Shown: one piece after another, positions 3,106 to 48,347 of the stretch
How positions within the stretch are numbered: position 1 is the stretch's first letter
Layout of the letters: every line of letters starts with the position of its first letter
NCBI GenBank assembly: GCA_902790465.1
Contig: CADASF010000034.1
Span: 1-48,682, forward strand
Source of the DNA: an uncultured bacterium
GTDB taxonomy: Bacteria; Vulcanimicrobiota; CADAWZ01
DNA: 48,682 nt
Direction of reading: 5' to 3'
Translations under genes and position numbers: made by a program
Notes under the pieces: model-generated
Told to the model about the DNA's origin: nothing
What the model saw: the letters and a program-made list of their open reading frames with translations, nothing else
Databases searched by the model: none

Positions 3106-3113
3106 ATTAAATT

Positions 3114-7129: not shown

Positions 7130-7133
7130 TATA

Positions 7134-7274: not shown

Positions 7275-7277
7275 TTT

Positions 7278-8210: not shown

Positions 8211-8232
8211 AAAAAAATATTTGGCGAATGAC
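8187..8232 (+). repeat. Short third copy of the restriction-gene tail and its flank
   Basis: AATAAAATAGAAGTCGAAAT with TAA and then ATATTTGGCGAATGAC corresponds to 10461-10504 (AACAAGTTACAAGTAGAAAT, TAA, ATATTTGGCGAATCAC). Coding sense is kept (NKIEVEI), so the Abi_C gene now ends with this borrowed tail. Confidence 0.6.
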
Positions 8233-8265
8233 TTTTTTTTCATCAATATAATAAAGGATAAATAA

Positions 8266-9663: not shown

Positions 9664-9682
9664 TTAGCATTTTTTATTAAAA

Positions 9683-10005: not shown

Positions 10006-10020
10006 AAAGAGAGATAAGAA

Positions 10021-10374
10021 ATGAAAAGTGAAGAGATTTTTTTTCAAAATTTAAATAATATTTATGATGTTATACAAGTGATAAATTCTTGTCAAGAAAT
10101 ATTAAAAGATTCTATTACTCTTATTGAACATAAATTTGTGATAGAAAGATATATGATAACTAAGTATTTAGATAGGAAACAAGCAATAGATATTTATAAA
10201 AAATTTAATCTTGAAAATCCAGAATATTTATTAGGAATAAATCTTTATCTTGTATTAAATCCTAATAATTGTGTAAATCTTGAACTATCATCTAATGAAG
10301 TTATTATTGAGAATTTATCATTACAACTTTTATGTTTTTGTTTTAAGAAAACTATAAAATATTTGAACAAATAA
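10021..10374 (+). CDS. Small protein of unknown function
   Basis: 117 residues, acidic/basic mixed and probably all helical at the N-terminus (SEEIFFQNLNNIYDVIQVIN, then EHKFVIERYMITKYLDRKQA), ending in a hydrophobic helix LQLLCFCFKKTIKYLNK. No signal peptide and no motif I recognise. AGAGAG lies just before the ATG. It sits between the palindromic element and the second restriction-gene tail, in line with the defence genes on both sides. It could be an accessory factor or antitoxin-like partner of the DUF2971 protein, but only position suggests this. Confidence 0.55.
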   Translation: MKSEEIFFQNLNNIYDVIQVINSCQEILKDSITLIEHKFVIERYMITKYLDRKQAIDIYKKFNLENPEYLLGINLYLVLNPNNCVNLELSSNEVIIENLSLQLLCFCFKKTIKYLNK

Positions 10375-10388
10375 AATATTGGCCCCCA

Positions 10389-10484
10389 CGCTATATCTTC
10401 GAATTGGCTAAAAATGTAATCAATATAGCCATAAAAACAGTCGCAATCCTCGACGAATTAAACAAGTTACAAGTAGAAATATAA
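10389..10484 (+). pseudogene. C-terminal tail of the lost type ISP-like restriction gene, copy 2
   Basis: Frame YIFELAKNVINIAIKTVAIL, then DELNKLQVEI and TAA 10484. It is nearly the same as copy 1 (7134-7274) but shorter at its 5' side and with its own substitutions. The bases after the stop (ATATTTGGCGAATCACT) match those after the Abi_C gene. It has no start site. Confidence 0.65.
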
Positions 10485-10531
10485 AAATATTTGGCGAATC
10501 ACTGTATTATAAAAAATTTAAGGAAAAAATA

Positions 10532-11836
10532 ATGAAAATTAAAGAACTTTATTTAAAAAATTTCCGTTGTTTTGAAGAAACAAAAATAGATTTCAATACA
10601 GATTATACTATTTTTGTTGGAATAAATGGAGCAGGTAAATCATCAATTTTAAATGCAATACAAATTATGTTATATCCAATTATGGAAGTATCTCAATATG
10701 ATATTCGTAACACTGGAATATCGAGTGATCCAAATATTAAAGATAGTGATATAACAACAAAAACAAAGAAATTGGGAAGTATTCTAAATCAAGAATTACA
10801 ATATCCAATGATTTTAAAATCTACTTTTCAAAAGTCAGATGATATAGAAATTCCTTTAGAATATACATTAAATAAAAATCATATAAATACAAGTGCAGAA
10901 ACAGAACCTCTTGTTGAATATGTAAGATATTTGCAAAATAAAGTAACAGAAGATGAAAAAACAATACTTCCAGTAATTGCTTATTATGGAACAAAAAGGC
11001 AGTGGGAGAAAACAGGACAAGAAGCTACAGATGAAATTTTATTTATGCCACAGATGAATGGCTATATAAATGCTCTAAGTGCAGAACCATTTAATATTAT
11101 GAGAATGAGACATTGGTTTTCTCGTATGTTATTAATTTCAAGAAAAAAGCCTGTTCTCGAATTTGAAGCAGTAAGAAATGCCATTGCAAATTGTTATAAA
11201 GAAATTGATGATAGGGAAGAATTGCAAGAAGTTAAAATTGACTATGATGCTGAAAAAGAAGATATAGAGATTCAAATGTATTTTGAAGATAAGACTGAAA
11301 TTTTACCATTGAGTTATTTGAGTGATGGAATGAAAAGCATTTTGGCTATTGTTTCAGACATTGCATATCGTATGGCTACCTTAAATCCTAATCTTCTTGA
11401 CAATGTGATAAAAGAAACAGATGGTATTGTAATGATAGACGAAATCGACATGCACTTGCACCCTTCTTGGCAAAGAAAAATAGTAGATAGTTTGACAAAA
11501 ACATTTCCAAAAGTTCAATTTATTTTTACGACTCATTCTCCTACAGTTTTAACAAATGTACCAAAAGAAAATATTAAAATAATATCTAATGGTAATATAT
11601 TTGATACAAATATAAATACTTATGGTCGTGATGTAAATTCAATCCTTAGAGAAATAATGCACAGTAAAATTCGTCCTTCTGAAACTCAAAAAATATTAGA
11701 TGATTTTTCAAATGCAATAGCAGATTCAGATTTAGAGAATGCAGAAAAAATACTTGAACAATTAAAAAGTATTTTAGGCGAAAATGACAGTGAAGTTGTA
11801 AACGCACAAGTAACTCTTGATCTTGAAAAAATATGA
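10532..11836 (+). CDS. ptuA: Septu-like ATPase PtuA (AAA/ABC-type)
   Basis: 434 residues. It starts MKIKELYLKNFRCFEETKID, with Walker A GINGAGKS at 30-37, a signature-like PLSYLSDGMKSILAIVSD, Walker B GIVMIDEIDMHLHP (D303, E304) and FTTHSP (H335). This is the SMC/RecF-like ATPase layout used by PtuA and by the ATPases of some retrons. The partner 10 bp downstream is an HNH nuclease of the PtuB/TIGR02646 type, which makes Septu the best name. PtuA is thought to form the oligomeric sensor that holds PtuB. No reverse transcriptase or structured RNA is visible nearby, so a retron is unlikely. AAGGAAAA precedes the ATG. Confidence 0.8.
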   Translation: MKIKELYLKNFRCFEETKIDFNTDYTIFVGINGAGKSSILNAIQIMLYPIMEVSQYDIRNTGISSDPNIKDSDITTKTKKLGSILNQELQYPMILKSTFQKSDDIEIPLEYTLNKNHINTSAETEPLVEYVRYLQNKVTEDEKTILPVIAYYGTKRQWEKTGQEATDEILFMPQMNGYINALSAEPFNIMRMRHWFSRMLLISRKKPVLEFEAVRNAIANCYKEIDDREELQEVKIDYDAEKEDIEIQMYFEDKTEILPLSYLSDGMKSILAIVSDIAYRMATLNPNLLDNVIKETDGIVMIDEIDMHLHPSWQRKIVDSLTKTFPKVQFIFTTHSPTVLTNVPKENIKIISNGNIFDTNINTYGRDVNSILREIMHSKIRPSETQKILDDFSNAIADSDLENAEKILEQLKSILGENDSEVVNAQVTLDLEKI

Positions 11837-11846
11837 GGTTTTAATC

Positions 11847-12548
11847 GTGATTTACATCAAAAAAAATTCTCCGCCTAAAAAATTTGTTGAATTTGTACAA
11901 AAAAATAAAAAAGCACATTTTAAAGCACATTTTGATGATATGCCTTCTGATGTTAAACAGATTTTAAGAGAGTCTCTTTTAAAAGAACAGGGATATTTAT
12001 GTGCTTATTGCATGAGTAGAATTAATATAGAAGATAAAAATACAGAACAAAATACCACAAAAAATAAAATATTAAATAAAATAGAACATTATGTACCACG
12101 AAATAGTGAAAATGAACTTGATTATAAAAATCTTTTAGCTGTTTGTGGTGGAAATTCTTTTGGAAATGAGGAAAAACATCAGCATTGCGATACAAAGAAA
12201 GGCAATAAAACTTTAAAAATTAATCCTCAAAATAAATACCATATAAGTCAAATTTCTTACAAACCAGATGGCACTATTTATTCAAAAAATAAAGAGTTTG
12301 ATGATGATCTTAATAAAGTTCTCAATTTGAATGATGATGAAGGTTGTCTTAAACAACGCAGAAAAGAAGCATTGGATACACTAAAAAGTGAAATTCATAA
12401 AATTTATAAAGATAAAACAGCAACTTTAAATTTTCTAAAAAAAACATTAAATTTTTATACAAGTTTAAATGAAAAAGGAGAGCTACAACCATATTGTGGT
12501 ATTCTTATTGAATATTTAGAAAAGAAAATAAATAACTGGCACAAATAA
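11847..12548 (+). CDS. ptuB: Septu-like HNH nuclease PtuB
   Basis: About 233 residues. The HNH/zinc layout is clear: CAYC at 52-55, IEHYVPR with H81, then NLLAVCGG and CDTKKGN (C114). This is the TIGR02646/PtuB pattern, a DNA-cutting effector partnered with PtuA. I chose GTG 11847 because TGAGGT lies 8 bp upstream and the protein then follows the ptuA stop by 10 bp; an upstream TTG would overlap ptuA without a ribosome site. The final residues KKINNWHK, the stop region and the terminator are repeated at 14637-14730, after the next cassette. Confidence 0.8.
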   Translation: MIYIKKNSPPKKFVEFVQKNKKAHFKAHFDDMPSDVKQILRESLLKEQGYLCAYCMSRINIEDKNTEQNTTKNKILNKIEHYVPRNSENELDYKNLLAVCGGNSFGNEEKHQHCDTKKGNKTLKINPQNKYHISQISYKPDGTIYSKNKEFDDDLNKVLNLNDDEGCLKQRRKEALDTLKSEIHKIYKDKTATLNFLKKTLNFYTSLNEKGELQPYCGILIEYLEKKINNWHK

Positions 12549-12619
12549 TTTTTATTTACTAAAAACATAAAAAAATCGTGTTGAGAAATTTTTCTTAACA
12601 CGATTTTTTTACTCACTTA
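12524..12619 (+). repeat. Direct repeat: ptuB tail plus terminator, copy 1
   Basis: GAAAATAAATAACTGGCACA and following bases through the hairpin to CTCACTTA match 14637-14730 with few changes. It contains the ptuB 3' end and the bidirectional terminator. The repeat ends at the TTA that, in the second copy, is the stop codon of the STAS gene. Confidence 0.85.
12569..12610. terminator. Bidirectional terminator hairpin after ptuB
   Basis: AAATCGTGTTGAGAAA pairs with TTTCTTAACACGATTT, flanked by A-runs on the left and T-runs on the right, so it can work on both strands. The same hairpin occurs at 14685-14722. Confidence 0.85.
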
Positions 12620-12655
12620 TTTTATATTTGAAATAAAACTCACTGAATTTTTATT

Positions 12656-12678
12656 AAAAGGAAAAATATTTTCCTTTT
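12656..12678. terminator. Perfect 10-bp hairpin, possible second terminator
   Basis: AAAAGGAAAA pairs exactly with TTTTCCTTTT around a 3-base loop and is followed by TATTTC. It lies 100 bp upstream of the next cassette and may shield it from ptuAB transcription. The rest of 12620-12777 shows only AT-rich sequence. Confidence 0.5.
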
Positions 12679-12777
12679 TATTTCAAAAAAATATTATTTT
12701 TTATCATTTTTCTAAATGAAAAGGAAATTTAATTTACCTTTAGAATATAATTATAAAATAAAATAAGGAAAATAATA

Positions 12778-14034
12778 ATGGAAATACAAAGAGTTTTTAT
12801 AGATGGATTTAAAAATTTATCAAATATTAATATAAATTTTGATAAATTAACTGCTTTAGTTGCATTAAATAATTTTGGTAAATCAAATGTATTATCTGCT
12901 TTAGAATTTGGAATATCTTTCATTCAAAGAAGACCTATTGACAAAGTAAAATTAATGTCAAGTACAAAGTTTATTCCTCTTAATAAAGCTATTGATAATA
13001 AAAGTTTTACTTTTGCCATTGAATTATTAATGAATTTAAATTCTCAAAATTATTATGTTTATTATGAATTTAAATTTAACTGGGCTTTACCTAATCCTAA
13101 AATAATATACGAATCCTTAAAAATTAAAACAGATAAAAAAGGTAATAAATTTACTCAACTAATAAATAGAAATGAAGAAGAAGCAAAATATAAAAGTTCA
13201 AAAACAAGTAAATGCTCTACGAAAATTAAAATAGAATCTAATGAGCTTGTTATTAATAAATTGCAGGCATATGATAATATATATTATTTAGAAGTCATAA
13301 AACAAATAAATTCTTTGACTTTTCACACAGAAAAAACTTTAGATGCTAAAAATAGTCTTTATGTTCAAGAAATTGTTATTAACAGAACTGAAAATGAAAT
13401 TTCTGTTGAAAGTCTGCCAAGTATTATATTTGAATTAAAAAATAGATACCCAGATAAATATGAATTACTAATAAATACATATAAAGAGTTATTCCCCAAT
13501 ATTGAAGATTTACAAGTTAGAGAATTTTCTTTAAATGCAACAGATATTAATAATATACAAAATAAAAATATTATTTCCCCTAAAGCATATTTCTTGACAG
13601 TTAAAGATAAAAATTTGATAGATTATGTAAATTTTTCTTCAATGTCTGATGGAGCAATAAGAATTTTTACAATCCTAACTAAAATTATTATTGCATCTAT
13701 AAGTAACATCTCATTAATAGCAATAGAAGAACCAGAAAATTCAATGCATCCAAAATTATTTAAAGCATATATTCAAATAATTTTGCAACTTTTAGATCAA
13801 TGTAAACTTATTATTACAAGTCATTCTCCTTATATTATTAACTTTATAGACCCTAAATGGATTTATGTAGGTTTAAATAAAAAAGAAGGAGTAGCAGAAT
13901 TTTTTTCTTTCAAAAAAACAGGTAGAAAAAAATTATTGAAAGATGCAGAAGATTTAGATATGGGGATGGGGGATTATCTATTTTCTCTTATTAGTGATAA
14001 CTCTTCAAATATTGATGAATACTTGGAGCGTTAA
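12778..14034 (+). CDS. AAA ATPase of an OLD/PARIS-like two-gene cassette
   Basis: 418 residues. It opens IQRVFIDGFKNLSNININFD. The Walker A region is ALNNFGKSN (29-37), a relaxed P-loop; a signature-like SSMSDGAIRIFTIL follows, Walker B is IAIEEPENSMHP (E317, E318), and ITSHSP carries H349. This is the OLD-family/RecF-type ATPase form (AAA_15/AAA_21). It has no TOPRIM domain of its own; a TOPRIM-like protein is encoded 4 bp downstream, so the pair resembles a split OLD nuclease or a PARIS-type AriA/AriB pair. AAGGAAAA precedes the ATG. The cassette is bounded by the ptuB-tail repeat. Exact family is not certain. Confidence 0.75.
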   Translation: MEIQRVFIDGFKNLSNININFDKLTALVALNNFGKSNVLSALEFGISFIQRRPIDKVKLMSSTKFIPLNKAIDNKSFTFAIELLMNLNSQNYYVYYEFKFNWALPNPKIIYESLKIKTDKKGNKFTQLINRNEEEAKYKSSKTSKCSTKIKIESNELVINKLQAYDNIYYLEVIKQINSLTFHTEKTLDAKNSLYVQEIVINRTENEISVESLPSIIFELKNRYPDKYELLINTYKELFPNIEDLQVREFSLNATDINNIQNKNIISPKAYFLTVKDKNLIDYVNFSSMSDGAIRIFTILTKIIIASISNISLIAIEEPENSMHPKLFKAYIQIILQLLDQCKLIITSHSPYIINFIDPKWIYVGLNKKEGVAEFFSFKKTGRKKLLKDAEDLDMGMGDYLFSLISDNSSNIDEYLER

Positions 14035-14038
14035 TCAA

Positions 14039-14635
14039 ATGAATAAATGTATTGTTTTATTTGTTGAGGGACAAACCGAAGTAGAATTTTATAATAAAAT
14101 TATATCTTATATAAGAGAACAACTACCCAACAAAAAATTTGATGTTAAAATTAATTGTATAAATGTAGAAGGTGTAGGCGGTTTTAAGAAAGAGGCTTTA
14201 AAAAAATTCAAAAAAGAAATTAAAATAAAATACAAAAATCATCAATTTATAATTTTTTGTTGTTTAGATTCAGATGTTTTTGAAGGTTCACAACAACCAC
14301 CAATTAATTTAAATAAAATACAAAAAGATTTAAAAATTAATGGAGCTAATAAAGTTTTTATAATACAAGCTGTACACACTATAGAGGATTGGTTTTTAAT
14401 AGACATTGAGAGTATTTTATCCTTTTTAAAATTAAAACCAACTACGAATATTAATGGAAAAAATGGTCTTGATAAAATGAAAACTATTTATAAAAAAGCA
14501 AATAAAACATACATAAAGGGTGGTAATACTAAAGATTTTATAGAAAAACTAAACATAAATAAAATAATACAAAACGAAGAAGTTAAAGAAAAATTAAAAC
14601 CTTTATTTGATGAATTGAATTGCAAATTTCTTTAA
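14039..14635 (+). CDS. TOPRIM-like effector partnered with the AAA ATPase
   Basis: 198 residues from ATG 14039, next to the ATPase stop at 14034 (an upstream in-frame TTG would overlap the ATPase). The N-terminus KCIVLFVEGQTEVEFYNKII gives the TOPRIM glutamate (E10) and the second strand gives FCCLDSDVF with D77 and D79. These are the metal-binding residues of a TOPRIM nuclease. The remaining part has VHTIEDWFLIDIESILSFL, where the W-F-L-x-D motif recurs in DUF4276/RloB-like proteins. The likely role is a nuclease released or activated by the ATPase on phage infection, by analogy with OLD and PARIS. Subfamily is not settled. Confidence 0.65.
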   Translation: MNKCIVLFVEGQTEVEFYNKIISYIREQLPNKKFDVKINCINVEGVGGFKKEALKKFKKEIKIKYKNHQFIIFCCLDSDVFEGSQQPPINLNKIQKDLKINGANKVFIIQAVHTIEDWFLIDIESILSFLKLKPTTNINGKNGLDKMKTIYKKANKTYIKGGNTKDFIEKLNINKIIQNEEVKEKLKPLFDELNCKFL

Positions 14636-14636: not shown

Positions 14637-14730
14637 GAAAATTAAAAACTGGCATAAAGAGTTTATTTAAAAAAACATAAAAAAAAATCGTGTTGAGAAA
14701 TTTTTCTTAACACGATTTTTTATTCACTTA
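14637..14730 (+). repeat. Direct repeat: ptuB tail plus terminator, copy 2
   Basis: GAAAATTAAAAACTGGCATA and following bases, in frame as KIKNWHKEFI, then the hairpin AAATCGTGTTGAGAAA...TTTCTTAACACGATTT (14685-14722) and TTCACTTA. It lies directly after the TOPRIM gene stop and ends in the STAS stop codon, so here the terminator serves both converging units. Confidence 0.85.
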
Positions 14731-37584: not shown

Positions 37585-37679
37585 TTTGTTATTATTTCTT
37601 GTGAATAATTCTATTTATTTTTTATAATTATACAGTTTTGTTATTATAATTTCAAGTGTAAAGCATATTTTCTCTATTA

Positions 37680-37902
37680 TACCTACAAATCGAGTTTTTT
37701 TCTCCTAAATGGAATTTAGGAGCGAGTTCTTACTTTGGCGAACCTTTAGAAAGTAAAAATAAAAAATTGTAAAAAAACTATGAAGTAGATAAAATAAATG
37801 AATAAGAAACTATAAATATACTTTAACAATAGGGGAAAGAGGGAGAAAATAAAAAATTCCTCATCTTTGATTTTTCAAAAGATGAGGAATTAGGGAAAAT
37901 TT
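37680..37902. repeat. Intergenic repeat R1 with terminator hairpin
   Basis: About 220 bp from ACCTACAAATCGAG to GGGAAAATTTTT. It shares long stretches with R2 (41485-41680) and R3 (44112-44252), above all TAGGGGAAAGAGGGAGAAAA and the hairpin ATTCCTCATCTTT...AAAGATGAGGAAT (37856-37890). It lies 8 bp beyond the stop of the minus-strand gene at 37911. The hairpin can terminate that gene, but the conserved part goes on well past it. An extra hairpin CTCCTAAATGGAATTTAGGAG is at 37702-37722. Confidence 0.85.
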
Positions 37903-37910
37903 TTAATATT

Positions 37911-39998
37911 TTATTTTACACCAAATTCTGTTTCCATTATTTTTTCAAACATTTCATAAGCATGTTGTCCACCATTTGAGATCATCATTTTACTAACTTT
38001 TCCATCTTTTACTTTAAAATGAATTGAAACTTCTTGTGGAAATCTTTCTTTTGGGATAGTATAATTATAATAATAAATTCCTTGATACCTATTAAGATTT
38101 TCTCCATATTTTTCGCATAATTTATTTTCAGAGTCTCCAACTTGGATTCCATTATTAGTTTTTAAACCATTTCTCCCTGATGATATTATATAGTGTCCAT
38201 CTATTGATTTGATAGAGTTTTTAAAATATTTTACGGTCATATTTACGGTATTAGTATTCATTCCATAAGGGATTACATATTGCTGAGTTACAACTTCTGT
38301 TGGATCACCAAGTAAATAATCATTTCCATAAATTTGCTCTAATGTATATGAAATTTCTGGCATTTTATTCGAATCCAATGCACCCCAAGGCTGACCACTT
38401 GCTGATCCGTCATAATATACATAAGGAACATTTGCAAAAGCCTCTTCGCCTATTGCCTGTACTTCATCTGGAATAATAACTTTATTAAGAGAAACACAAT
38501 TTGAAAATGCCCATTTATTAATAATCATACAAGAACTTGGAATATTTAAACTTTCCAATGCTCTACAACCTGCGAATGCACTTGTTCCTATGTATGTAAG
38601 ATTTTCAGGAAGAGATATTTTTTTCAATGATTTACATTTATAAAAAGCCATGTCACCGATTTTATTAACACTATTGGGAATTTCAATTTCACTTAAAGAA
38701 ATGCAATTATAAAATAAACTGTCTCTGATTTCTGTTATTCCGTTTGGAAGATTTATTGTTTTTAGAGCTTTGCAATTTGCAAAAATATTGTTGTTTATTT
38801 TATTTATACTATTTGGAAGATTTACTGTTGTTAGAGCTGTGCAGTTTTCAAAAGCAGAAACGCCTAAAATCTGCACTCCTTCTTCAATAGTTACTTTTTG
38901 TAATGCTCCGTAATTATAAAAAAGTTTTTCTCCAACTTTTGTTATTTTATAATGATTTCCTTTAAATTCATAAGTAGCAGGTATTTTTACAGATGTAAAA
39001 TTCTTTTTATCTGCAGGATTGTAACCTAACTGATACAAAACTTGTTTATCAAGAACAACTTCTGTATATTTTATGTTTTGTGTTTGAGTTTGTATAGGTT
39101 GTGGTACTACTTTAGGAGTTTCTGTATTTGTATAATTTGAAGTTGTTGTAACAGTGCTTGTTTGATGAGTTTTTGGAAATTTAGAATTAAATGTTGATAT
39201 AACAAGGAAACAAAAAGCATTTAAAATTACAAGTAAAATTATACAAATTATAAATATTACTATATTTTGTTGTTTATTTTCTTCTGATTTAGTTCTATCA
39301 TTATAATTTGTTGCTGATAAATTTAATAATAATAAATTTTTTATTGCTTTTTCATTTATTGTAGAAGGAGTCCCACAATTGTTACATACAATTTTTCTTA
39401 TTTTTCTATTATAAATTTTAGAATCCGAAAAAAAATTTTCTTCTAAAGACTCTGTCAGATTCTTAGGCAATACATAATAATAAATATAATTTGCTATATT
39501 ATAGAATAAAATTGGTAAAAGTATTATAGATGTAAAAACTAAATATGTTGTATTAGCCCAAGTGTAAGCATCTGGTTCTGAGAAAATAAAACTCCAATTA
39601 ATGCCTAAAGATATAAGTATAAAAAAAATGATAAATACTAATTTAGGAGAGAATAAAATAGAAGATGTATTTTCTGAAGATGTAGTACTCTCTTGGAGTT
39701 GAGAATCTAAATAGGTGATATTTGTAGATTTACATTTAGGGCAACAAGGATCAGATATATCATCTTCTATTTCTTCTTTTTTAGATATTCCTTTCCTTGC
39801 TAAGCGTAATTCTATATTTTCATCTTCTATTTGTTTTATAGTATCATTTTCTTCTTTAATCTCATTATTTTCAGATTCTTTTGTAAGATTTATTTTTGGA
39901 TTTTTTTCTGTTATATTTTCTACTTTGTTTCCATCTATTGGATTTATTGTTGATTTTCTTTTTCTAATTATTTTGAATTTTTTATTTTCTGTATTCAT
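37911..39998 (-). CDS. Zinc-ribbon membrane protein with BspA-like leucine-rich repeats
   Basis: 695 residues. A charged N-terminus leads to a zinc ribbon (CCPKCKSTNITYL paired with IVCNNCGTPSTINEK later), two spans (LVFIIFFILISLGINWSFIF and YLVFTSIILLPILFYNIANY), and a third (IVIFIICIILLVILNAFCFL). The outer part has LRR_5/BspA repeats: AFENCTALTTVNLPNSINKI, IFANCKALKTINLPNGITEI, LFYNCISLSEIEIPNSVNKI and four or so more, to FANVPYVYYDGSA. A C-terminal domain (about 150 residues) is unassigned. BspA repeats bind proteins or surfaces in other bacteria. The join of a cytosolic zinc ribbon to an outer LRR is unusual. Repeat R1 follows the stop. Confidence 0.75.
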   Translation of the reverse strand: MNTENKKFKIIRKRKSTINPIDGNKVENITEKNPKINLTKESENNEIKEENDTIKQIEDENIELRLARKGISKKEEIEDDISDPCCPKCKSTNITYLDSQLQESTTSSENTSSILFSPKLVFIIFFILISLGINWSFIFSEPDAYTWANTTYLVFTSIILLPILFYNIANYIYYYVLPKNLTESLEENFFSDSKIYNRKIRKIVCNNCGTPSTINEKAIKNLLLLNLSATNYNDRTKSEENKQQNIVIFIICIILLVILNAFCFLVISTFNSKFPKTHQTSTVTTTSNYTNTETPKVVPQPIQTQTQNIKYTEVVLDKQVLYQLGYNPADKKNFTSVKIPATYEFKGNHYKITKVGEKLFYNYGALQKVTIEEGVQILGVSAFENCTALTTVNLPNSINKINNNIFANCKALKTINLPNGITEIRDSLFYNCISLSEIEIPNSVNKIGDMAFYKCKSLKKISLPENLTYIGTSAFAGCRALESLNIPSSCMIINKWAFSNCVSLNKVIIPDEVQAIGEEAFANVPYVYYDGSASGQPWGALDSNKMPEISYTLEQIYGNDYLLGDPTEVVTQQYVIPYGMNTNTVNMTVKYFKNSIKSIDGHYIISSGRNGLKTNNGIQVGDSENKLCEKYGENLNRYQGIYYYNYTIPKERFPQEVSIHFKVKDGKVSKMMISNGGQHAYEMFEKIMETEFGVK

Positions 39999-40060
39999 AA
40001 ATGAAATTCTCTCTTTATTTGTTATTTGATTGTGTAAAATTTTTTCTGTATTTTTCTAAA

Positions 40061-40133
40061 TAGTTTTCTGTGTAATACAATGAATTGAATAGAGCGAAGC
40101 GGAATTGAAGTGAATGTATTACACAGAAAACTA
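40061..40133. repeat. 19-bp perfect inverted repeat with 35-bp loop
   Basis: TAGTTTTCTGTGTAATACA (40061-40079) is exactly inverted at 40115-40133. The loop has GAGCGAAGCGGAATTGAAG, with its own GAGCGAAGCG and the AATTGAA repeated on both sides. It lies between two minus-strand genes. A terminator is possible, but no T-run follows on the minus strand, and the length suggests a small palindromic element. Confidence 0.75.
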
Positions 40134-40145
40134 GCACAGACTCTT

Positions 40146-41186
40146 TTATTTTCTATTTTTGCTTTTTAATATTTCTTTTTCATTTGTTTCTAAAGATGGA
40201 GATTGTTGTTCTAATTCTTTTAATGCTTCTTTTGCATCTTCGTTACCTTGATCAGCTGATTTTTTGTACCAATATTTAGCTTGTTCTATATTTTCTTCTG
40301 TACCTTCTCCATTTTCGTACATAGCCCCAAGATTATATTGTGCTTGGCTATCTCCTTGTTCAGCTAATTTTTTTAATAATTCAAAAGCCTTTTTATATTT
40401 TTTTTGATTGTAAAATGAATTTGCCATTTCAAACATATCAAATTCATTAGAATTGTTCTTTTCTTCTGTTTTTTCTGTTTCTTCATTTTCATCCTTTTTT
40501 ATTTCATTAGATAAATTGTTTTCAGATGATTCTATATTTTCTGTTTTTGGGATAAGATTATTATCTTTTTCAAAATTGTAACCACAAACATTACAGACAA
40601 ATATTTTTTCTGATTTTGTTTCAATTATTTTGTAAAGCAAACATATTAGTGAACAACATATAATTAATAAAAATATACCAAAATTTATTAATTTTGAGTA
40701 ATCAATAGTTTCAGATTTTGTCATTGTCATTATGATTGGATATAAGGGAGTATTAGAAGAAAAACCAATTATTAAAGATATAATTCCAAATAATATGCCA
40801 CCAAGATTGATGTAATAAAGTAGCATAATAATAACATTATAATAATTACTTTGATTTGTACTTAGATTTTGAAAACCCATAAATATTTCATATAGTTTAA
40901 TTATTGGAAATGATATAATTATAATAATTATGCAAAAGCCTAATAAAGTAACAAATATTGAACAAATTATGTCCATACCTGAAATATTTGAGTTTGAGAA
41001 GAAAAAATCTCCTGAAATAAGATTTTGTATAACACCAATTAAAACAAGAGTAAGAAAAAAAAGAAAAATTGCTAATCCGAATCTTATAAAAATTCCTTGT
41101 AGCCATAATAAAAATTTTAAACCAAAATCATTATTTTGTAATTTTGTTACACTTGATGATTTACATTTAGGACATTGTAATTTCAT
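40146..41186 (-). CDS. Zinc-ribbon membrane protein with Sel1 repeats
   Basis: About 346 residues from ATG 41186 (AGAGGC upstream; a TTG at 41204 is less likely). The N-terminus MKLQCPKCKSSSVTKLQNND is half of a zinc ribbon; the other half is IFVCNVCGYNFEKD after four membrane spans. A Glu/Lys/Asn-rich linker leads to Sel1-type repeats: SFYNQKKYKKAFELLKKLAE, QGDSQAQYNLGAMYENGEGT and EENIEQAKYWYKKSADQGNE. The plan is the same as in the LRR protein upstream and the gene at 44256: split zinc ribbon, spans, then a protein-binding repeat. Function unknown. Confidence 0.7.
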   Translation of the reverse strand: MKLQCPKCKSSSVTKLQNNDFGLKFLLWLQGIFIRFGLAIFLFFLTLVLIGVIQNLISGDFFFSNSNISGMDIICSIFVTLLGFCIIIIIISFPIIKLYEIFMGFQNLSTNQSNYYNVIIMLLYYINLGGILFGIISLIIGFSSNTPLYPIIMTMTKSETIDYSKLINFGIFLLIICCSLICLLYKIIETKSEKIFVCNVCGYNFEKDNNLIPKTENIESSENNLSNEIKKDENEETEKTEEKNNSNEFDMFEMANSFYNQKKYKKAFELLKKLAEQGDSQAQYNLGAMYENGEGTEENIEQAKYWYKKSADQGNEDAKEALKELEQQSPSLETNEKEILKSKNRK

Positions 41187-41270
41187 ATTTATTTTGCCTC
41201 TCAAAATTTATTTTTGATTTTATTATTAGGGCGTTTTGGTAAAGTCCCTAATTTTCAAGTTACAGCAATT

Positions 41271-41372
41271 TTAAATTAAATACTTTTCATAAGTAAAAGC
41301 CAAAGAAGAACAGTTAAGTATTATAAAACTTAAACAAAAAAAATAAAAAACAAACGATAAATATTTTTTCAT
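41271..41372 (-). pseudogene. Truncated copy of the small secreted protein gene (41718-42155)
   Basis: From ATG 41372 the frame gives MKKYLSFVFYFFCLSFIILN, then CSSLAFTYEKYLI and a stop. This is the signal peptide of the gene at 41718-42155 with few changes. The upstream GGAGG, promoter region and ATGACA-N5-TGTCAT palindrome (41426-41442) are also kept. Only 33 codons remain, so the mature protein is gone. The rest of 41205-41270 holds nothing I can name. Confidence 0.8.
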
Positions 41373-41425
41373 TTTTTACCTCCATTTTTGTAAAAAAATA
41401 TATATTTATATTATACACATATACT

Positions 41426-41442
41426 ATGACAGAATGTGTCAT
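41426..41442. promoter_or_regulatory. ATGACA-N5-TGTCAT palindrome, copy at the truncated gene
   Basis: A 6-bp inverted repeat with a 5-base spacer, upstream of a TATAAT-like box (minus strand, 41409-41414). The arms are the same as at 42209-42225 while the spacer bases differ, which fits an operator. Confidence 0.5.
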
Positions 41443-41484
41443 TTTTAAAATTTGATAATTTTTTTTAAAAAAATTTAACTTTGC

Positions 41485-41680
41485 TACCTACAAATCGAGG
41501 TTTTTTCTCCTAAGACCAACCGCTAAGAAGTAAAAATAAAAAATTGTAAAAAAAATATAAAGCCGATAAAATAAATGAATAAGACACTATAAATATATTT
41601 TAACAATAGGGGAAAGAGAGAGAAAATAAAAAAATTCCTCACCTTTGTTTTTTCAAAAGATGAGGAATGAGTGGAAAATG
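41485..41680. repeat. Intergenic repeat R2 with terminator hairpin
   Basis: About 195 bp from CTACCTACAAATCGAGG to GAGTGGAAAATG. It matches R1 closely (AAAAATTGTAAAAAAA, ATAAAATAAATGAATAAG, CACTATAAATATA, TTTTAACAATAGGGGAAAGA) but lacks the CTTTGGCGAAC section. The hairpin at 41634-41668 has one mismatch (CACC against GATG). It follows the stop of the gene at 41718 by 37 bp. Confidence 0.85.
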
Positions 41681-41717
41681 AATTATAGTAAATTTTATTT
41701 AAATCCTAATTGTTTCA

Positions 41718-42155
41718 TTAATAATCCGTTTTATAAAATTTTTTCCCTTTTAAAATTTGAAAAATTAAATTACCTGTAGGGAGTATAACTCCAGTTTCTG
41801 CCCAACTACCAGTTGTAGGAACATATTCATAAACACCGTATTTATTTTGTACATACATTTTATTTGCGAGTAAATCATATTTATAGTATTTATCATAACT
41901 ATCTGTAATCTTTTTGGTTCTTTCTTCTGCTACACAAATTTTTGCCCATGCTTTTAATTCATATTTATTAGATTGGGATGAAATTTTTATAGAATCTTTT
42001 ACTAAATAAAATCCATATCCCATATGCCCATCAACTAATATGAAATTTTTATTTCCATTTAAATATTTTTCATAAGCAAAAGCTGAAGAAGAAAAGTTAA
42101 GTATTATAATACTTAAACAAAAAAAATAAAAAACAAAAGATAAATATTTTTTCAT
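41718..42155 (-). CDS. Small secreted protein of unknown function
   Basis: 145 residues. Signal peptide YLSFVFYFFCLSIIILNFSS with a cut near AFA-YE. The mature part is about 115 residues, beta-rich and Tyr/Lys-rich: NFILVDGHMGYGFYLVKDSI, KYELKAWAKICVAEERTKKI and KYYKYDLLANKMYVQNKYGV. The pattern of surface-type substitution and a WAETGVILPTGNLIFQIL end recalls small bacterial envelope proteins of unknown role. GGAGG stands 6 bp before the ATG. A truncated copy with the same promoter lies 350 bp away at 41271-41372, which means the locus has been duplicated. Confidence 0.65.
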   Translation of the reverse strand: MKKYLSFVFYFFCLSIIILNFSSSAFAYEKYLNGNKNFILVDGHMGYGFYLVKDSIKISSQSNKYELKAWAKICVAEERTKKITDSYDKYYKYDLLANKMYVQNKYGVYEYVPTTGSWAETGVILPTGNLIFQILKGKKFYKTDY

Positions 42156-42208
42156 TTTTTACCTCCATTTTTATAAAAAAATATATATTTATATTATACA
42201 CATATACT

Positions 42209-42225
42209 ATGACAGAAATTGTCAT
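42209..42225. promoter_or_regulatory. ATGACA-N5-TGTCAT palindrome upstream of the small secreted gene
   Basis: Inverted repeat next to a TATAAT box (minus strand, about 42192-42197), 55 bp before the ATG. It is kept in the duplicate at 41426-41442 with a different spacer, so it is a candidate binding site for a dimeric regulator. Confidence 0.5.
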
Positions 42226-42401
42226 TTTTGCAGATAGATTATAAAAAAATATAAAATTTTTTTTGTACTTTTTTTATAAAAATTTTTGCTATATAGAGCT
42301 AAGGTAAACTTCGCTCTTTCATTTTAAAGTGAAGGAAAAAAAAGTATGTGCTTTGAGTATAAATTTGAAAAATAGAAATGTTAATATAGTTAAAAATAAA
42401 A

Positions 42402-42438
42402 AATCGAGGCTTTCGCCCTATTGGCGAAAACCTCGATT
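42402..42438. terminator. Strong hairpin between converging or tandem units
   Basis: AATCGAGG-TTTCGCC pairs with GGCGAAA-CCTCGATT around CTATT with one mismatch. It sits at the 3' side of the AAA-ATPase-like gene and at the left border of the 185-bp direct repeat. The arm AATCGAGGTTTT is also the left end of R1 and R2. The rest of 42241-42401 is AT-rich and I see nothing in it. Confidence 0.6.
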
Positions 42439-42621
42439 GGTCTTAATATTAGTCTTCTCTAAATAGAGAATATCTGCTTCACAAAGCGATCGCTTTGTGA
42501 TATTTAATTTTCATAAAAATACTTTTTCTATTTTTGCAAATATTTTCCTTCTATGTTTTCACATCACAATTTGTTTCTGCTTGTCATTAGCCACAAAAAC
42601 GGCAGTAATTATCTTTTTATT
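42437..42621. repeat. 185-bp direct repeat, left copy, with a 22-bp perfect palindrome
   Basis: It runs from TTGGTCTTAATATTAG into the 3' end of the AAA-ATPase-like gene and matches 48496-48682; the last 63 bases (coding) are identical. TCACAAAGCGATCGCTTTGTGA (42479-42500) is a perfect palindrome. Confidence 0.9.
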
Positions 42622-44025
42622 AAATTTGAATTCAATAATAATTATTTTATCATCGAATTGAATTATAACATCAGAACGCCCTTGGTATGTATGAACTTCG
42701 GCAAAATATATGATTTTTGCAACACTAAGTAACATTAAGAATAAAGAACGATACCAATACTCGTCTCTATCTTTATAATCATCATAAGGAATCCCTTTTA
42801 ATCCCTTATTGAAAGTTTCAACGATTTTATTTATATTTTCTTCATCCAATGCTTCCCAAATATCATCACTAAATATGGCATATTCTTTTATATTGTAAAA
42901 ATTCTCAAGAAATAAAGAATACATCGAACTACGCACTTCTTCATTTGGATAATCAAGAATTATTACATTCCCTCTTTTTTCCTTTATCGTCAAATATCCA
43001 GCTTGAAATAAAAAACTTTCAACATCTGCTGTTTCTATTTCACTTGCATTTGTAAAATCAATTGTAACTTTTTGATTTATATACTCTTTTGGATTTTTTA
43101 TTTTATGTTTTTTAAGATATTTTGCAAGAAAAGATGGTGTAGCAGAATTATACCAATAGTTATAAAAATATTTTTCTTTAAAGAATTTTAAAACAGAAAA
43201 TGGATTATATACTCTTGTTATTCCATCAAAAGAAAAACCATCATAATATTCTTTAATTTTATCTAAAAGCTCTTTTTTACTCATTGATTTTTTTTGAGCA
43301 GTTATTTCGAGCCACTCAGAAAAATTGTCTTCAAGTTCTTGCTGTGTGTAACCTACAATGTCCCCATATTCTTCAGACATAGAGATATCATCTAAATTAT
43401 TTAGCCCAGAAAAAATTCCAACCTTTGTAAATTTAGAAATTCCAGTTATAAAGACAAATCTTAAATATTTGCTATAAGTTTTTAAAGTAATATAGAAATT
43501 GCGTAAAAATTTTCTTACTTTCTCTGCCATTTTTATATTGTCAATATATTCAGTAATAGGAAAATCATATTCATCAATGAGAACAACAACTAATCCAAAT
43601 TTTTCATAAAGTGTATAAATGAGTTTTTTAAACATAGCTTTTGCATTTCGTTCTTTATCTATGCTTAATTTATACTCATTTGCTATATGTTGAAGATCAT
43701 TTATGAGAGATTCGTCTATTTCTTTAATATTTTCATAAGAATCTAAACCACTCATGTCCAATGTTATAATAGGATTTGGATGTTTTGATTGTTCTTTTGC
43801 CCATTCCTCAGCATAAAGACCCTTGAATAATTCAATTTTACCTTGAAACATTGATTCAAGTGTAGAAATAGTAAGTGATTTTCCAAATCTTCGAGGACGA
43901 GAAAGGAAATAATATTTACTATTATCTATCATTTGTAATATTTGTTTTGTTTTATCAATATAAAGCCAGTTATTTTTACGAATTGTTTCAAAATTTTGTT
44001 CACCAATAGGTAAAACTTTTAACAT
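42559..44025 (-). CDS. AAA-ATPase-like/PD-(D/E)XK protein with internal C-terminal deletion
   Basis: 488 residues. N-terminal AAA-ATPase-like domain (PF09820 type): LPIGEQNFETIRKNNWLYID, a P-loop SRPRRFGKS at 42-50, LDMSGLDSYENIKE, Walker B VVVLIDEYDFPITEYI and VFITGISKFTKVGIFSGLNN. C-terminal PD-(D/E)XK part: GRSDVIIQFDDK, IIIIEFKF. Right after EFKF the chain jumps to NKKIITAVFVAND, so about 43 residues present in the copy at 1-261 (including QEQVTRYAESY) are missing, without a frameshift. The nuclease-like D...E-x-K is kept but the fold has lost a helix. The role of this often multicopy family is unknown. Confidence 0.85.
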   Translation of the reverse strand: MLKVLPIGEQNFETIRKNNWLYIDKTKQILQMIDNSKYYFLSRPRRFGKSLTISTLESMFQGKIELFKGLYAEEWAKEQSKHPNPIITLDMSGLDSYENIKEIDESLINDLQHIANEYKLSIDKERNAKAMFKKLIYTLYEKFGLVVVLIDEYDFPITEYIDNIKMAEKVRKFLRNFYITLKTYSKYLRFVFITGISKFTKVGIFSGLNNLDDISMSEEYGDIVGYTQQELEDNFSEWLEITAQKKSMSKKELLDKIKEYYDGFSFDGITRVYNPFSVLKFFKEKYFYNYWYNSATPSFLAKYLKKHKIKNPKEYINQKVTIDFTNASEIETADVESFLFQAGYLTIKEKRGNVIILDYPNEEVRSSMYSLFLENFYNIKEYAIFSDDIWEALDEENINKIVETFNKGLKGIPYDDYKDRDEYWYRSLFLMLLSVAKIIYFAEVHTYQGRSDVIIQFDDKIIIIEFKFNKKIITAVFVANDKQKQIVM

Positions 44026-44111
44026 ATATGTTTTTTCCTCTTTCGGATTTTTTTCTCTTAAATTTTATTTTATCATATAGAAATAAATAATACAAGATTT
44101 TTTATATTGTA

Positions 44112-44252
44112 CTAACAAATATACTTTGGCGAACCACTTAAGAGTAAAAAATAAATATTAAAAACAATAAAGAAAAAATAGGGGAAAGAGGGAGAAAATA
44201 AAAAATTCCTCATCTTTGATTTTTCAAAAGATGAGGAATTAGGGAAAATTTT
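44112..44252. repeat. Intergenic repeat R3 with terminator hairpin
   Basis: About 140 bp. It keeps ATACTTTGGCGAACC, the AATAGGGGAAAGAGGGAGAA block and the hairpin (44205-44239) exactly as in R1, but lacks about 70 bp in the middle. It ends 3 bp from the stop of the gene at 44256. Confidence 0.85.
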
Positions 44253-44255
44253 TAT

Positions 44256-45440
44256 TTATACTAATTTTTTTATTTCATCTTTATATAATGTTACTATTCC
44301 TGTAAAATCATCTTTATTTATTTCTAATAAGTCTTTAATTTGTTTATCTATTGAATGATAATCTTCTTTTTCCATTGCTATGATATATGTCAATTGATAT
44401 TTTAGAGGGTTTATTTCGTCTAATTTATCTAATAATATTTTTCTATTTTCTATTTGTTTTGATAATTTACTTTCTATTTGTTTGATTTTGTTTTCTTTTT
44501 CTATTTTGTATAAAGGATCTTTATCTAAAGAATTTTTATTTGTATTTAATAATTTAACTTTATAATTTTTTGATTCATCAATTTCTTTTTCTAATTTATT
44601 TATTTTTTTATATTCTTCTTCTATTACTTCTGTTACTATATTTAAAGCAGTTTGATAATCTTTTTTATCTATTATTAAATGAGCAATGTAAAATTGTTTG
44701 ATTTTTTCTTTTGAATTAAATTTATTAGGGGATTCTAATATTTGTTTGTACGCTATTTCACTATTTGCTTCATGAATTTTTTTTTCTAATTTAAGTTTAT
44801 TTTCTTTTTTTGTTTGAAAGTTACAAATAACTATTGAAAGCATAATGAGAAGCAGGAAAATTACTGATCCAAAATCTTTTGCGAAATATCCAAAAAACAT
44901 TATAAATATTATTCCTATAATTGAGCTTACTATTGGACCAACAATAGATATTTTTTCAAATGTAAATTGTTTTTGTGATTCTTTTATTTTACTCATTGAC
45001 AATATTAATCTTTTCCTTATTGTCAATGAAATATTTTTAAATAATTCTTTTCTATTTTCTTTAATTTTTTCTATTTTTTCTTTTTGTTTTTCATTTCCAA
45101 ATTGTATAACTCTTTTATAATTTTTATTTTCTTTTAATGAAGATAAAAAAATATATTTATCTGTTATACATTTTTTATACCTAAATCAATAAATAATTTT
45201 CCTAAATATGCATCTGCATTTTCAGGATCTAAATTTAAAATATTGTCTGCAACTTCGCCTGCTTTCTTAAACTCTTCATCTTCAAGTAACAAAGACATTC
45301 TTTTTATTAAAGTGGAAATTTTACTTTGCTCTGAAATGGCAATTCCTCTAACAACAGTTTCTTCACCAATATCTTTGAGATTTGTTTCATAACCGCAAAA
45401 AGAGCATTTAGCAATGGTATCTCTGCTTGTGTCAAGTAGA
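44256..45440 (-). pseudogene. Zinc-ribbon/TPR membrane protein gene, truncated and frameshifted
   Basis: Read on the minus strand, the frame from the GC-rich border gives DTIAKCSFCGYETNLKDIGE, then a TPR-like stretch ending NADAYLGKLFIDLGIKNV-stop. One extra base in the T6 run (45171-45176) would join it to KCITDKYIFLSSLKENKNYK, RVIQFGNEKQKEKIEKIKEN, a two-span region (IVGPIVSSIIGIIFIMFFGY) and a long coiled coil (44256-44996). AYLGKL...YKRVIQFGNE is a known pattern of zinc-ribbon/TPR proteins, so this was one gene. The 5' end (first zinc half) is lost where the GC-rich island begins. The part 44256-44996, with ATG 44996, might still be translated. Confidence 0.7.
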
Positions 45441-45610
45441 AACTAAAAATTTCTTTCTATGCCGTGAACTATCTCCCGGCCCTGCCCCACGGCCTATTGC
45501 AGAGATGAGGCCGCGAATTTTCAGCGCTCCCCTCTTGCCGAGGCTGGGCAGAGAGCAGGATGTTTTCCCTTTTGGCCAGTTGGGTTTTGCTCTCCACATT
45601 CTAAAAACTC
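45441..45610 (-). other. GC-rich border segment with short open frame
   Basis: After the recombinase stop, a frame starts MWRAKPNWPKGKTSCSLPSL and reads GC-rich codons into the AT-rich border, stopping in the zinc-ribbon gene. I do not recognise it. It marks the change from AT-rich native DNA (below about 45440) to the island. Confidence 0.35.
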
Positions 45611-46459
45611 CTATTCGTCTCCATTAAGGCAGTCACGGAACCGCCACTGCACTTCAATCCGCGCATCCAGATAAACCAGAATCCTGTCCACAAAGGCATG
45701 TGCCATGTCATAGGTCAGGGATTTTTCCTTGCGGAACGCCTCGCACATGTCCTCAAATGCAGTGTGCATGACACGGGATTCCGTCATCTCCGCTTCATTT
45801 AGCTCCTGTGACGCTTCAATTTAGGCTTGCATACGGGATTTTTGCATCAATTTCTCGCTTCTTTTGCAGATATTTGTCCTTGCTTATGCCACCAGAGGTG
45901 TACTGCTCATACTCACGGAATTTGCTACGCTTCAAAAATTCGATGCGTCGCCCTAACTTTTCCACATTCGTATGGCTGGCAGCAGTTGTTTTGCGTGATT
46001 CGCAGAGTTTCTGCTCTTTTTTTATGCGTTTCTGCTCTGCAATCCGCATATACTCTTGAATTCCTTGTTCTTCGTGAGGAAGTCCGGCGTGAAGGTCTTT
46101 TGGATGCGGGCGCAGCCCGTGTACTTCTCGTTGGCGAGGACTCCGTTGATGGTGGCGGCATTCCACTTGCTCTTGCCCGTGACCGTCAGGATTCCCCGTC
46201 TTGTAAGTTCCTTGGCGATGGCGCAGGGAGTCAGCCCCTCAATGAACAACCCGAAGATGAACCGCACGGTCTTGGCTTGCTCCTCGTTGATGGCAAGGTT
46301 GCCGTTCTCACCCTTGTCGTAGCAGAGGAAACGGGAGTAGCCCACGGAGAATTTCCCGTCAGCGAACTTTTTTCTCAGTCCCCAAGTCACATTCTCCGAA
46401 ATACTCCGCGCCTCCTCCTGGCTAAGGGACGAGAGGATTGTGAGTAAAATTTCGCCTTT
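45611..46459 (-). pseudogene. Decayed large serine recombinase (5' truncated, frameshifted)
   Basis: Minus-strand fragments in three frames form a serine recombinase without its catalytic N-terminal domain: GEILLTILSSLSQEEARSIS, ENVTWGLRKKFADGKFSVGY, then LTPCAIAKELTRRGILTVTG and WNAATINGVLANEKYTGCAR (Recombinase domain), a frameshift near 46070, YMRIAEQKRIKKEQK, REYEQYTSGGISKDKYLQKK, a second shift near 45815, and the last part MTESRVMHTAFEDMCEAFRK ending at TAG 45611. Such enzymes move integrative elements; this one cannot be active. Base composition is much richer in G+C than the neighbouring genes. Confidence 0.85.
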
Positions 46460-46569
46460 ACTAATAATTCCTGATACAATCTAACGATGAACCCCCTTGC
46501 CCCCCCTGCCTATCGTTAAGCGAGTATGCCTCGGAAGCCGCACGGGACAAGGCTTCGAGAAAAAGAGAA

Positions 46570-46589
46570 GGGGGTGCATTTGCACCCCC
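46570..46589. terminator. GC-rich hairpin downstream of the amidase
   Basis: GGGGGTGCA is exactly inverted as TGCACCCCC with a 2-base loop; A-rich bases on the left read as a T-run for the minus-strand amidase. A second hairpin (GAAGCC...GGCTTC) lies at about 46530-46558. The rest of 46460-46669 carries no gene I can see. Confidence 0.7.
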
Positions 46590-46669
46590 AAGGCTCATAA
46601 TATCTTCCCTGCCATACTAAATGTGTGGTCTCAGTAGGCTAAAACAAGCCCTTTTTGTTACCCATAATA

Positions 46670-48271
46670 CTATTTTTCATTCCTGAAATCCGGGAAACGC
46701 CCATCCTGATAGAGAGGAGCAATGACTTTTGACAGGGCGTATGCCACACGGAAAGCATTCAAATCATCATAGGTGTTGCTGACAATCTGCACGCCCACGG
46801 GAACATTTTTATCGGACAGTTCCACCGGCATATCCACAACCGGATATCTGCTGGCAAGATTCCAAATTGGTGTCAGCATAAGGTTGGTGCTCGTATAGGT
46901 TTTCCCGTGAATCTGGGCTGCTTTATCAGGCGTCGCTTCAAGATCGGCGGGGAAATACGGCGTTGCCAGCGTGGGCATGACCAAGGCGATACAACCCTTC
47001 TCAAAAATCTTATGCTGAACTTCCTGGTGCAACTTCACCAACATCATTTCTGCGTTAACCTGATCCTGCGGAGTCAGCTTGCCTGCATACGCCTCCAAAT
47101 TTTTCACGTAAGCACTGAACTTATCGCGATGCTGGTCTAAACCATCAAAGATGACGTACATGCTTGTGGTCATGAGTCCCTTGAAGAAGGTCGGCATGAA
47201 CCCTTCGGCATTGATGTCGAGTTCTACCCGTTCAACTTGCGCTCCGGCCTTCTCCAGCGCCGCAACTGCGGTGTCAATGGCATGGTCGGATTCCTGGCTC
47301 AGACCGCCCTGGAGCCAGTTCTTGAAGTAGGCGACGGCGACCTTCTGCCCCCGAATCGGAGCGTATTTCTGGGGATAGTCCAGCTTGGGCTTGATCGTGG
47401 AATGAACCTCCGGGCTGGGGCCGGCAATGACGTCCTGCATGAGCACCATGTCGGCAAAAGTGCGGGCCATGGGACCCAAGGTTTCGTAGGCAATTTCCGA
47501 CGTGGCGACACGACCAAAGGGCGGCTTGAAGCCGTACACCCCGTTCATGGAAGAGGGAATGCGGATGGAGCCGCCCATGTCGGAGCCAGTGGCCAGGGTG
47601 CAGAAGCCCGCAGCCAGTGCCGCACCAGAACCGCCGGAGGAACCGCCGGTGCCGTAGTAGAGGTTCCATGGATTACGGCTGACACCGTAGAGACGCGACC
47701 ATGTCATGGGGCTGAGGTACTGCTCGGATACCGTGGTCTGGAAGACAAATATCGCTCCCTCTTCGCGGAGTTTCTTAATCATGGCACCGTCAGCGGCGCT
47801 GGGCGCGATGTCCTTCAGAATAATGGATGCGCAGTCGACGCGCCAGCCCTTGACTGCATTCTCGTCCTTGACGCCGACGGTAATCCCTTCAAGCCTGCGT
47901 GCAGAGCCTTTCCGGTAGCGTTCATCGGCCTCCTTTGCCAGCTTCCTGGCCTCGTCAAAATTGTCGAAGGTGATGGCATTGACCTTGCCAGCGTTGAAGG
48001 TGTCCAGCTCGTTTAGCAAATCCCGGCGCGATACATTGTATTCGCCATTGTACTTCTTTACACGGCTGATCTGCGCTTCCAAAACTTCGCTGGGCGTTGT
48101 TTCACCTTTTTTGAACAGCTCTATGAGTTGTACGGCTGGCATGTATGCCAGCTCTTCTTGGGAAAACTTCGATGCGGCATAAACCGCATTTGCGCCTGAT
48201 GCAAAGAGCGTAATCAGCACTCCTGCCATGAAACGCAAAAAAACATTCCTGAAAAAAAATCTGTTCTTCAC
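46670..48271 (-). CDS. Exported amidase-signature family hydrolase
   Basis: About 533 residues. GTG 48271 is the likely start because AGGAGG ends 4 bp before it; a signal peptide follows (FMAGVLITLFASGANAVYAA). The amidase signature is complete: LEGITVGVKDENAVKGW (K135), YYGTGGSSGGSGAALAAG (S211) and GSDMGGSIRIPSSMNGVYGF (nucleophile S235), forming the Ser-cisSer-Lys triad. It hydrolyses amide bonds of an unknown substrate, outside the cytosol. Codon use is GC-rich, with GCC, CTG, GGC and ACC common, unlike every native gene here, and the reading frame is intact. It lies beside a dead recombinase, so it was probably brought in by horizontal transfer. Confidence 0.9.
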   Translation of the reverse strand: MKNRFFFRNVFLRFMAGVLITLFASGANAVYAASKFSQEELAYMPAVQLIELFKKGETTPSEVLEAQISRVKKYNGEYNVSRRDLLNELDTFNAGKVNAITFDNFDEARKLAKEADERYRKGSARRLEGITVGVKDENAVKGWRVDCASIILKDIAPSAADGAMIKKLREEGAIFVFQTTVSEQYLSPMTWSRLYGVSRNPWNLYYGTGGSSGGSGAALAAGFCTLATGSDMGGSIRIPSSMNGVYGFKPPFGRVATSEIAYETLGPMARTFADMVLMQDVIAGPSPEVHSTIKPKLDYPQKYAPIRGQKVAVAYFKNWLQGGLSQESDHAIDTAVAALEKAGAQVERVELDINAEGFMPTFFKGLMTTSMYVIFDGLDQHRDKFSAYVKNLEAYAGKLTPQDQVNAEMMLVKLHQEVQHKIFEKGCIALVMPTLATPYFPADLEATPDKAAQIHGKTYTSTNLMLTPIWNLASRYPVVDMPVELSDKNVPVGVQIVSNTYDDLNAFRVAYALSKVIAPLYQDGRFPDFRNEK

Positions 48272-48347
48272 TATACCTCCTATCTCAAACATCAAAATAC
48301 TTAACCTTCCCTACTGGGAAAGGCTTGTACGGCATTGATAAAGACTT

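Follow-up and report, generated by a model that had tools for sequence, protein, structure and literature searches.

Integrons carry as cargo many small modules that consist of toxin-antitoxin (TA) or defence genes, pdif sites alternate in orientation, and Ter sites comprise about 20 polar sites of 20–30 bp that are oriented along replication. In Acinetobacter, pdif modules place accessory modules including TA pairs between short sites, on chromosomes too, according to PMC12907356. Here, we analysed a stretch of 48,682 nt (contig CADASF010000034.1, assembly GCA_902790465.1; uncultured bacterium; Vulcanimicrobiota; CADAWZ01), called the window in the following, which contains three related repeats, R1 to R3, and copies of a dispersed 26-bp core motif. 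The window's own genome (G000) was compared to RUG13696 (G001), its one congener, and to three more distant relatives (G002 to G004). The reading we prefer, to which we give an even chance, is that the R1–R3 family represents polar junction sites of exchanged accessory modules.

R1 (37680–37905), R2 (41485–41680) and R3 (about 44116–44254), given on the plus strand, each begin directly past the 3′ end of a minus-strand gene. A sequence-only reading of the window had claimed that they share a terminator hairpin and up to 150 bp beyond it, and this was confirmed: the gene-end hairpin together with 100–150 bp is common to all three at 86.6–93.4% pairwise identity, calculated over the stretch that starts behind the core and includes the hairpin (R1/R2 93.4%, R1/R3 92.8%, R2/R3 86.6%). 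The accessory genes which that reading placed in front of the repeats are likewise present on the minus strand, namely a gene for a BspA-type LRR protein ending at R1 (37911–39998), a small secreted-protein gene assigned to no Pfam family ending at R2 (41718–42155), and a zinc-ribbon/TPR-like gene ending at R3 (44256–45423), which is frameshifted and truncated in the window and has an intact paralog on contig C13. The 20-mer TAGGGGAAAGAGGGAGAAAA occurs in the window at 37830, 41607 (one mismatch) and 44179; since a shuffled window is expected to give only 0.01 matches, and three matches were obtained in none of 100 shuffles, the likeness of R1–R3 is beyond chance. The genes adjoining the three repeats are mutually unrelated, so simple gene duplication is insufficient to explain it.

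R3 is the only one of the three with a complete core (44116–44141; core profile E 3.3e-8), followed by a shorter A/G-rich stretch, with ~30 bp of the block missing relative to R1, and by the terminator hairpin (44204–44240). R1 starts with a 29-bp left part shared with R2 (37680–37708 versus 41485–41513, 97%) and continues with a hairpin sequence, also present at C5:260–321, in place of the core's left part, then the right part of the core (37734–37751), an A/G-rich stretch, and the terminator hairpin of the LRR gene (37855–37891, minus strand), a self-complementary match with a T-run after it on the minus strand. R2 carries the same block with the core mostly deleted.

A genome-wide search for the block, as the sequence-only reading had proposed, yielded a fourth copy at G000:C13:1663–1835; this copy, the core motif in R1 and R3 and the 29-bp left extension of R1 and R2 go beyond what had been noticed before. 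C13:1–3011 overall is a 77% paralog of the R3 neighbourhood (window 42622–45423). Nevertheless, the block on C13 is closest to R2 (97.8%), followed by R1 (94.1%) and by R3, its positional partner (87.6%), which argues that the block is moved or homogenised without the genes beside it. The likeness between R1 and C13 reaches into the last coding bases, where the end of the C13 gene has the sequence of the LRR gene end in a different reading frame; the block and a few coding-end bases have therefore been moved or converted between loci with unrelated genes. The main alternative is a passive intergenic repeat, in which genes were copied together with their ends by segmental duplication, the 150-bp blocks were kept similar by gene conversion, and nearby breaks reflect repeats seeding ordinary homologous recombination. 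Segmental duplications are plain here (C13:1–3011 versus window 42622–45423; 41268–41446 versus 42051–42229), many other repeats occur in this genome, and the block is more identical than its flanks, which fits gene conversion.

The core, CAAATATTCTTTGGCGAAYCRCTGGA, is 26 bp long (about 28 bp); its left edge is sharp, and the sequence to its right is A/G-rich. With a profile built from 20 copies, which match by construction, and counting at E<0.002 (C10:1486 and every match with E 0.01 or worse being excluded), it was found at 19 places in G000 and at six places in G001, the latter all with E<4e-7; R1 itself reached 0.036 (match at 37731–37758). Nothing convincing was obtained in G002–G004, with E 0.2 or worse in G002 and G004 and 0.03–0.1 in G003, there in a tandem repeat at contig ends. 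An exact 23-base core pattern matched only three contigs of RUG13696 within the genome collection. Besides R3, the window contains a weak core at 8211–8236 (plus strand, E 0.0015) overlapping the end of an AbiJ-like gene, and a core at 10481–10506 (plus strand, E 3.1e-6) just ahead of a PtuA-like gene.

Matches of the profile on C104 (E 0.03) were dropped as they lie inside glycosyltransferase-like open reading frames. A viral or plasmid origin of the core was rejected: six viral pattern matches scored 22–27 compared to 19–45 for the profile-building copies and have no common tail, which is attributed to chance; a phage search with R1 and with the whole stretch gave no match, and the sole plasmid match of the C47 array was a RelE/ParE toxin gene on two plasmids. 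In a literature text search, TTTGGCGAACC appeared only in unrelated papers and RUG13696 in none.

The cores are strictly polar. On all six contigs that hold at least two of the 25 matches (15 sites; G000 and G001), they face one way. In the examined stretches, 14 contigs carry genes on both strands, and on 13 of these the core lies on the strand of higher GC skew at third codon positions (GC3 skew), which implies that it reads along the leading strand. The probability of at least 13 of 14 by chance is 0.0009; C88 is the exception, and the skew is weak on C5 and C11. Gene direction fails to explain the polarity, since the window cores are all on the plus strand while the R1–R3 genes are on the minus strand and the genes at 8–14 kb on the plus strand. 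By comparison, repeat X, a ~330-bp sequence (window 9670–10007), showed eight copies in the same versus five in the opposite orientation in the same stretches. A leading-strand orientation over distant contigs is not predicted for a passive repeat. It would be expected of a polar replication or segregation site, either a Ter-type fork barrier or an FtsK-type orienting sequence, at which stalled forks would make the surroundings prone to rearrangement so that accessory genes gather. About 20 copies of a 26-bp core, oriented consistently along replication and in several cases occupying the same place in both species (C78/C19, C47/C111, C5/C107), agree with such a site; its absence from relatives of the same family, its tight placement at gene starts and ends and the conserved A/G-rich tail do not, and we consider this explanation quite improbable.

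Repeat X occurs dozens of times in G000 and G001, facing either way, and is partly self-complementary. Copies of it sit inside or beside several core elements.

The cores often have TA and defence genes as neighbours, which were found in all six core-to-core intervals shorter than 3 kb and beside 13 of 25 single sites (8/19 in G000, 5/6 in G001), both counts being made post hoc with the annotations already seen. The short intervals hold a helix-turn-helix (HTH) gene with a toxin remnant and HigBA-like genes on C47, an HTH/IrrE protein on C88, a PDC-S31-like gene in the window (8211–10481), HigBA-like genes on C101 of G001, recognised by homology to C47, and a PIN protein on C19 of G001. Single sites with such neighbours are three on C47, one on C88, C5:312 (Abi_2), C8 (HicB) and window 8211 and 10481 in G000, and in G001 two on C101 and one on C107 (by DNA homology) as well as two on C19. 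Only one of ten control gaps in core-free stretches had such a neighbour, a HigB-like match under the Pfam cut-off (one-sided Fisher 0.024), and a helicase/PLD protein adjoining another control gap could also be defence, which would weaken the contrast between sites and controls. In the window, the AbiJ-like gene (7278–8210) lies left of core 8211, the PDC-S31-like gene (8266–9663) between the two cores, and Septu-like PtuA and PtuB genes (10532–12548) right of core 10481, all on the plus strand. TA or defence genes in six of six short intervals are again not predicted by a passive repeat, which we regard as possible, if somewhat unlikely.

To locate where homology ends, we compared nine site pairs, namely those with homology of more than 100 bp rightward of the core. 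In six of them it stops within 22 bp of the left edge of the core: C47_1572/C101_3593 (−1), C78/C19_996 (−15), C88_5645/C89 (+4), C47_208/C101_4967 (−19/−22), C47_2964/C101_3593 (−6) and R1/C13 (+9). The nine pairs represent fewer than nine independent break events because several have members in common, and an apparent break can be mimicked by loss of similarity in AT-rich DNA. The similarity between the TA units of C47 and C101 begins at the left edge of one core and extends 107 bp beyond the next core, where G001 has a copy of repeat X.

The genes between the repeats also differ between the species; whether such genes vary was a check proposed in the sequence-only reading. Window 37603–42541 (4.9 kb), comprising R1, the LRR and Sel1 genes, R2 and the second secreted-protein gene, is absent from G001. 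There, C26 carries an ortholog of the secreted-protein gene at 36967 (91% identical) directly adjacent to one of the AAA-ATPase gene's 3′ part (93%). This gene pair adjoins a ClpC-like gene in G001 and a uridine-kinase-like gene in that place in the window, and the different neighbour indicates that more than one change separates the two loci. R1–R3 as the ends of the 4.9-kb difference were rejected, as the breaks lie elsewhere.

Several observations weigh against junction sites of exchanged modules. Neither end of the 4.9-kb species difference falls at a core, three of the nine pairs stay homologous leftward (C47_18772/C111 to −104, C47_1572/C47_2964 to −521, R3/C13 to −800), one of the six breaks (R1/C13) stems from the hairpin sequence of R1, and no empty site, lacking the core between two retained flanks, was found among the compared loci. 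The sites are spread over many contigs and form no single array, several adjoin ordinary genes (NifU/FMN reductase, MFS), and recombination of distant direct sites would delete essential DNA, so the sites cannot be very active. By eye, the core is only weakly an inverted repeat, and an 11-6-11 layout with 7/11 inverted matches that can be drawn on one consensus form was not counted as significant. Furthermore, no integron integrase above the cut-off was found in G000 and G001 (completeness 98% and 89%), the best of the three G000 PF00589 proteins that score reaching 145.5 versus 265 bits with the NCBIfam integron-integrase model; judged by score and sequence, the PF00589 matches of G001 fall into the same three kinds.

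G000 contains four PF00589 matches, a Xer (C5:130525), a 268-aa enzyme, a phage-like one and a weak one. G002 has one match only, taken as its Xer, and a Xer is the sole tyrosine recombinase common to G000, G001 and G002. The 268-aa enzyme (G000:C69:11643–12449) has a nearly identical copy on C202 of G001. It was discarded as a genus-specific candidate as it lies ~1.7 kb from an HsdS-like gene (named by sequence) with no core nearby, and is probably a type I restriction shuffling enzyme.

Transcription from the site was considered as well, either a promoter or leader that produces a small RNA or one that drives the gene rightward of the core. In several copies a plus-strand gene begins shortly past the core behind an A-rich leader with AGGGA resembling a ribosome-binding site. 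Against this, no conserved −35 element is visible by eye, many copies, R1–R3 among them, face the 3′ ends of genes, and there is neither an Rfam match nor a conserved fold (mean z −0.34, 27 sites); a promoter or leader is therefore very improbable. The small RNA that the sequence-only reading had offered as a second possibility found no support, with nothing in Rfam and no conserved single-strand fold. A known RNA family was rejected, since the searched part of the window gave no gathering-level match and two other loci only chance-level mir-999.

Returning to junction sites, R1–R3 would belong to a genus-restricted family of polar intergenic sites, each consisting of the 26-bp core and an A/G-rich stretch, which in the R subfamily continues into the terminator hairpin belonging to the gene directed at the site. 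Beyond the observed copies, their one-way orientation, their neighbours and the homology breaks at the core, we infer that the core itself is a recombination substrate. The sites would then mark joins between accessory modules, that is, TA pairs, defence genes, and LRR and zinc-ribbon proteins; recombination at or beside the core would alter what lies beyond it, and gene conversion would afterwards keep the copies alike. The earlier proposal of recombination sites for module swapping is thus upheld in part: other copies, species-differing neighbours, breaks at the core and TA or defence genes in short intervals speak for it, whereas neither R1 nor R2 forms an end of the 4.9-kb difference, no recombinase was identified, and the blocks could be nearly identical through gene conversion. 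A more specific version, which we hold to be unlikely, is an integron-like cassette system without integron integrase, in which TA, defence and surface-protein modules of one rumen genus are inserted and exchanged at a ~28-bp polar core by a resident enzyme (perhaps Xer) or by single-strand capture at the replication fork.

The site may mark where toxin, defence and surface-protein genes are traded. As a recombination site, the core would show how a little-known rumen genus gathers TA and anti-phage genes without integrons, and it could serve to list such cargo in newly sequenced genomes. As a fork-related site, it would instead be a polar replication element specific to this lineage, with accessory genes collecting next to it. 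Direct predictions for closed genomes follow from either reading.

Further features of the window and related loci are as follows. Positions 2101–14635 form a defence island with two type II methyltransferases, a restriction enzyme and AbiJ-like, PDC-S31-like, Septu-like PtuA/PtuB and HEC-01-like genes; C114 of G001 retains the window only rightward of 14681. The same terminator hairpin is present at 12569–12611 and 14680–14721, flanking the HEC-01-like genes, and also marks where the G001 C114 homology begins; this module is therefore bounded by a repeated terminator too. A zinc-ribbon-like/Sel1-repeat protein gene (40146–41204, minus strand) lies between R1 and R2, and between it and R2 a remnant of a secreted-protein gene start with its upstream region (41268–41459) is 93% identical to 42051–42242. 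Downstream of R3 follows an AAA-ATPase-like gene (PF09820; 42559–44025, minus strand), and in G001 alone genes of this type occur at over 20 places, frequently at contig ends; the end of C34 and the start of C13 both fall inside such a gene. The gene ending at R3 is cut by 45427–48295, a segment of ~50–60% GC amid 20–28% GC that holds an amidase gene and a broken serine recombinase. Its C13 paralog encodes 405 aa with a zinc-ribbon-like start by eye (CGNCG...CPFCG); for the product of the gene ending at R3, the genome collection yielded no relatives, and a five-genome search only the C13 paralog. In G001, ~590 bp with a small secreted-protein gene (C111:5011–5603) are absent from C47 of G000, with ~20 bp of G000 sequence matched at both ends.

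Compared with known systems, the sites resemble integron cassettes and clusters of attC sites lacking integrases (CALIN) in being short, direct-oriented and placed around small accessory modules, many of them TA or defence. They differ in the lack of an integron integrase, of attC boxes and of an attC-like fold, in their scattering, and in a core that is conserved, not variable. Neither strand of two core consensus forms contains the boxes RYYYAAC or GTTRRRY, and 27 sites showed no attC-like single-strand fold (mean z −0.34, no common pairing; Markov shuffles being a rough control); together with the missing integrase this led us to reject a canonical integron. With dif/pdif modules the locus shares accessory modules including TA pairs with short sites, and the presence of Xer. 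However, the core has no TTATGTTAA half by eye and is not dif-like, and all sites face one way in contrast to the alternating pdif sites. A dif pattern (11-6-11 halves) gave only two-mismatch matches, none of them at a core and no more than the reversed control in G000 and G001, and canonical dif copies were therefore rejected. Like miniature inverted-repeat transposable elements (MITEs) and repetitive extragenic palindromic (REP) repeats, the sites are short, dispersed, intergenic and limited to one genus, yet they show strict polarity, a right end that is not fixed and placement at module junctions; no terminal inverted repeats and no reverse-oriented core partner near the cores were found in the mapped stretches. 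About 20 polar short sites in one orientation along replication (13/14 contigs, GC3 skew) recall Ter fork barriers, from which they differ in their neighbours and A/G-rich tail. We found no description of the core in the covered literature on integron-like arrays, pdif and chromosomal integrons, which mostly does not extend to subscription papers. Short sites around accessory modules are known already; the variant here is this core, its polarity and the missing integrase.

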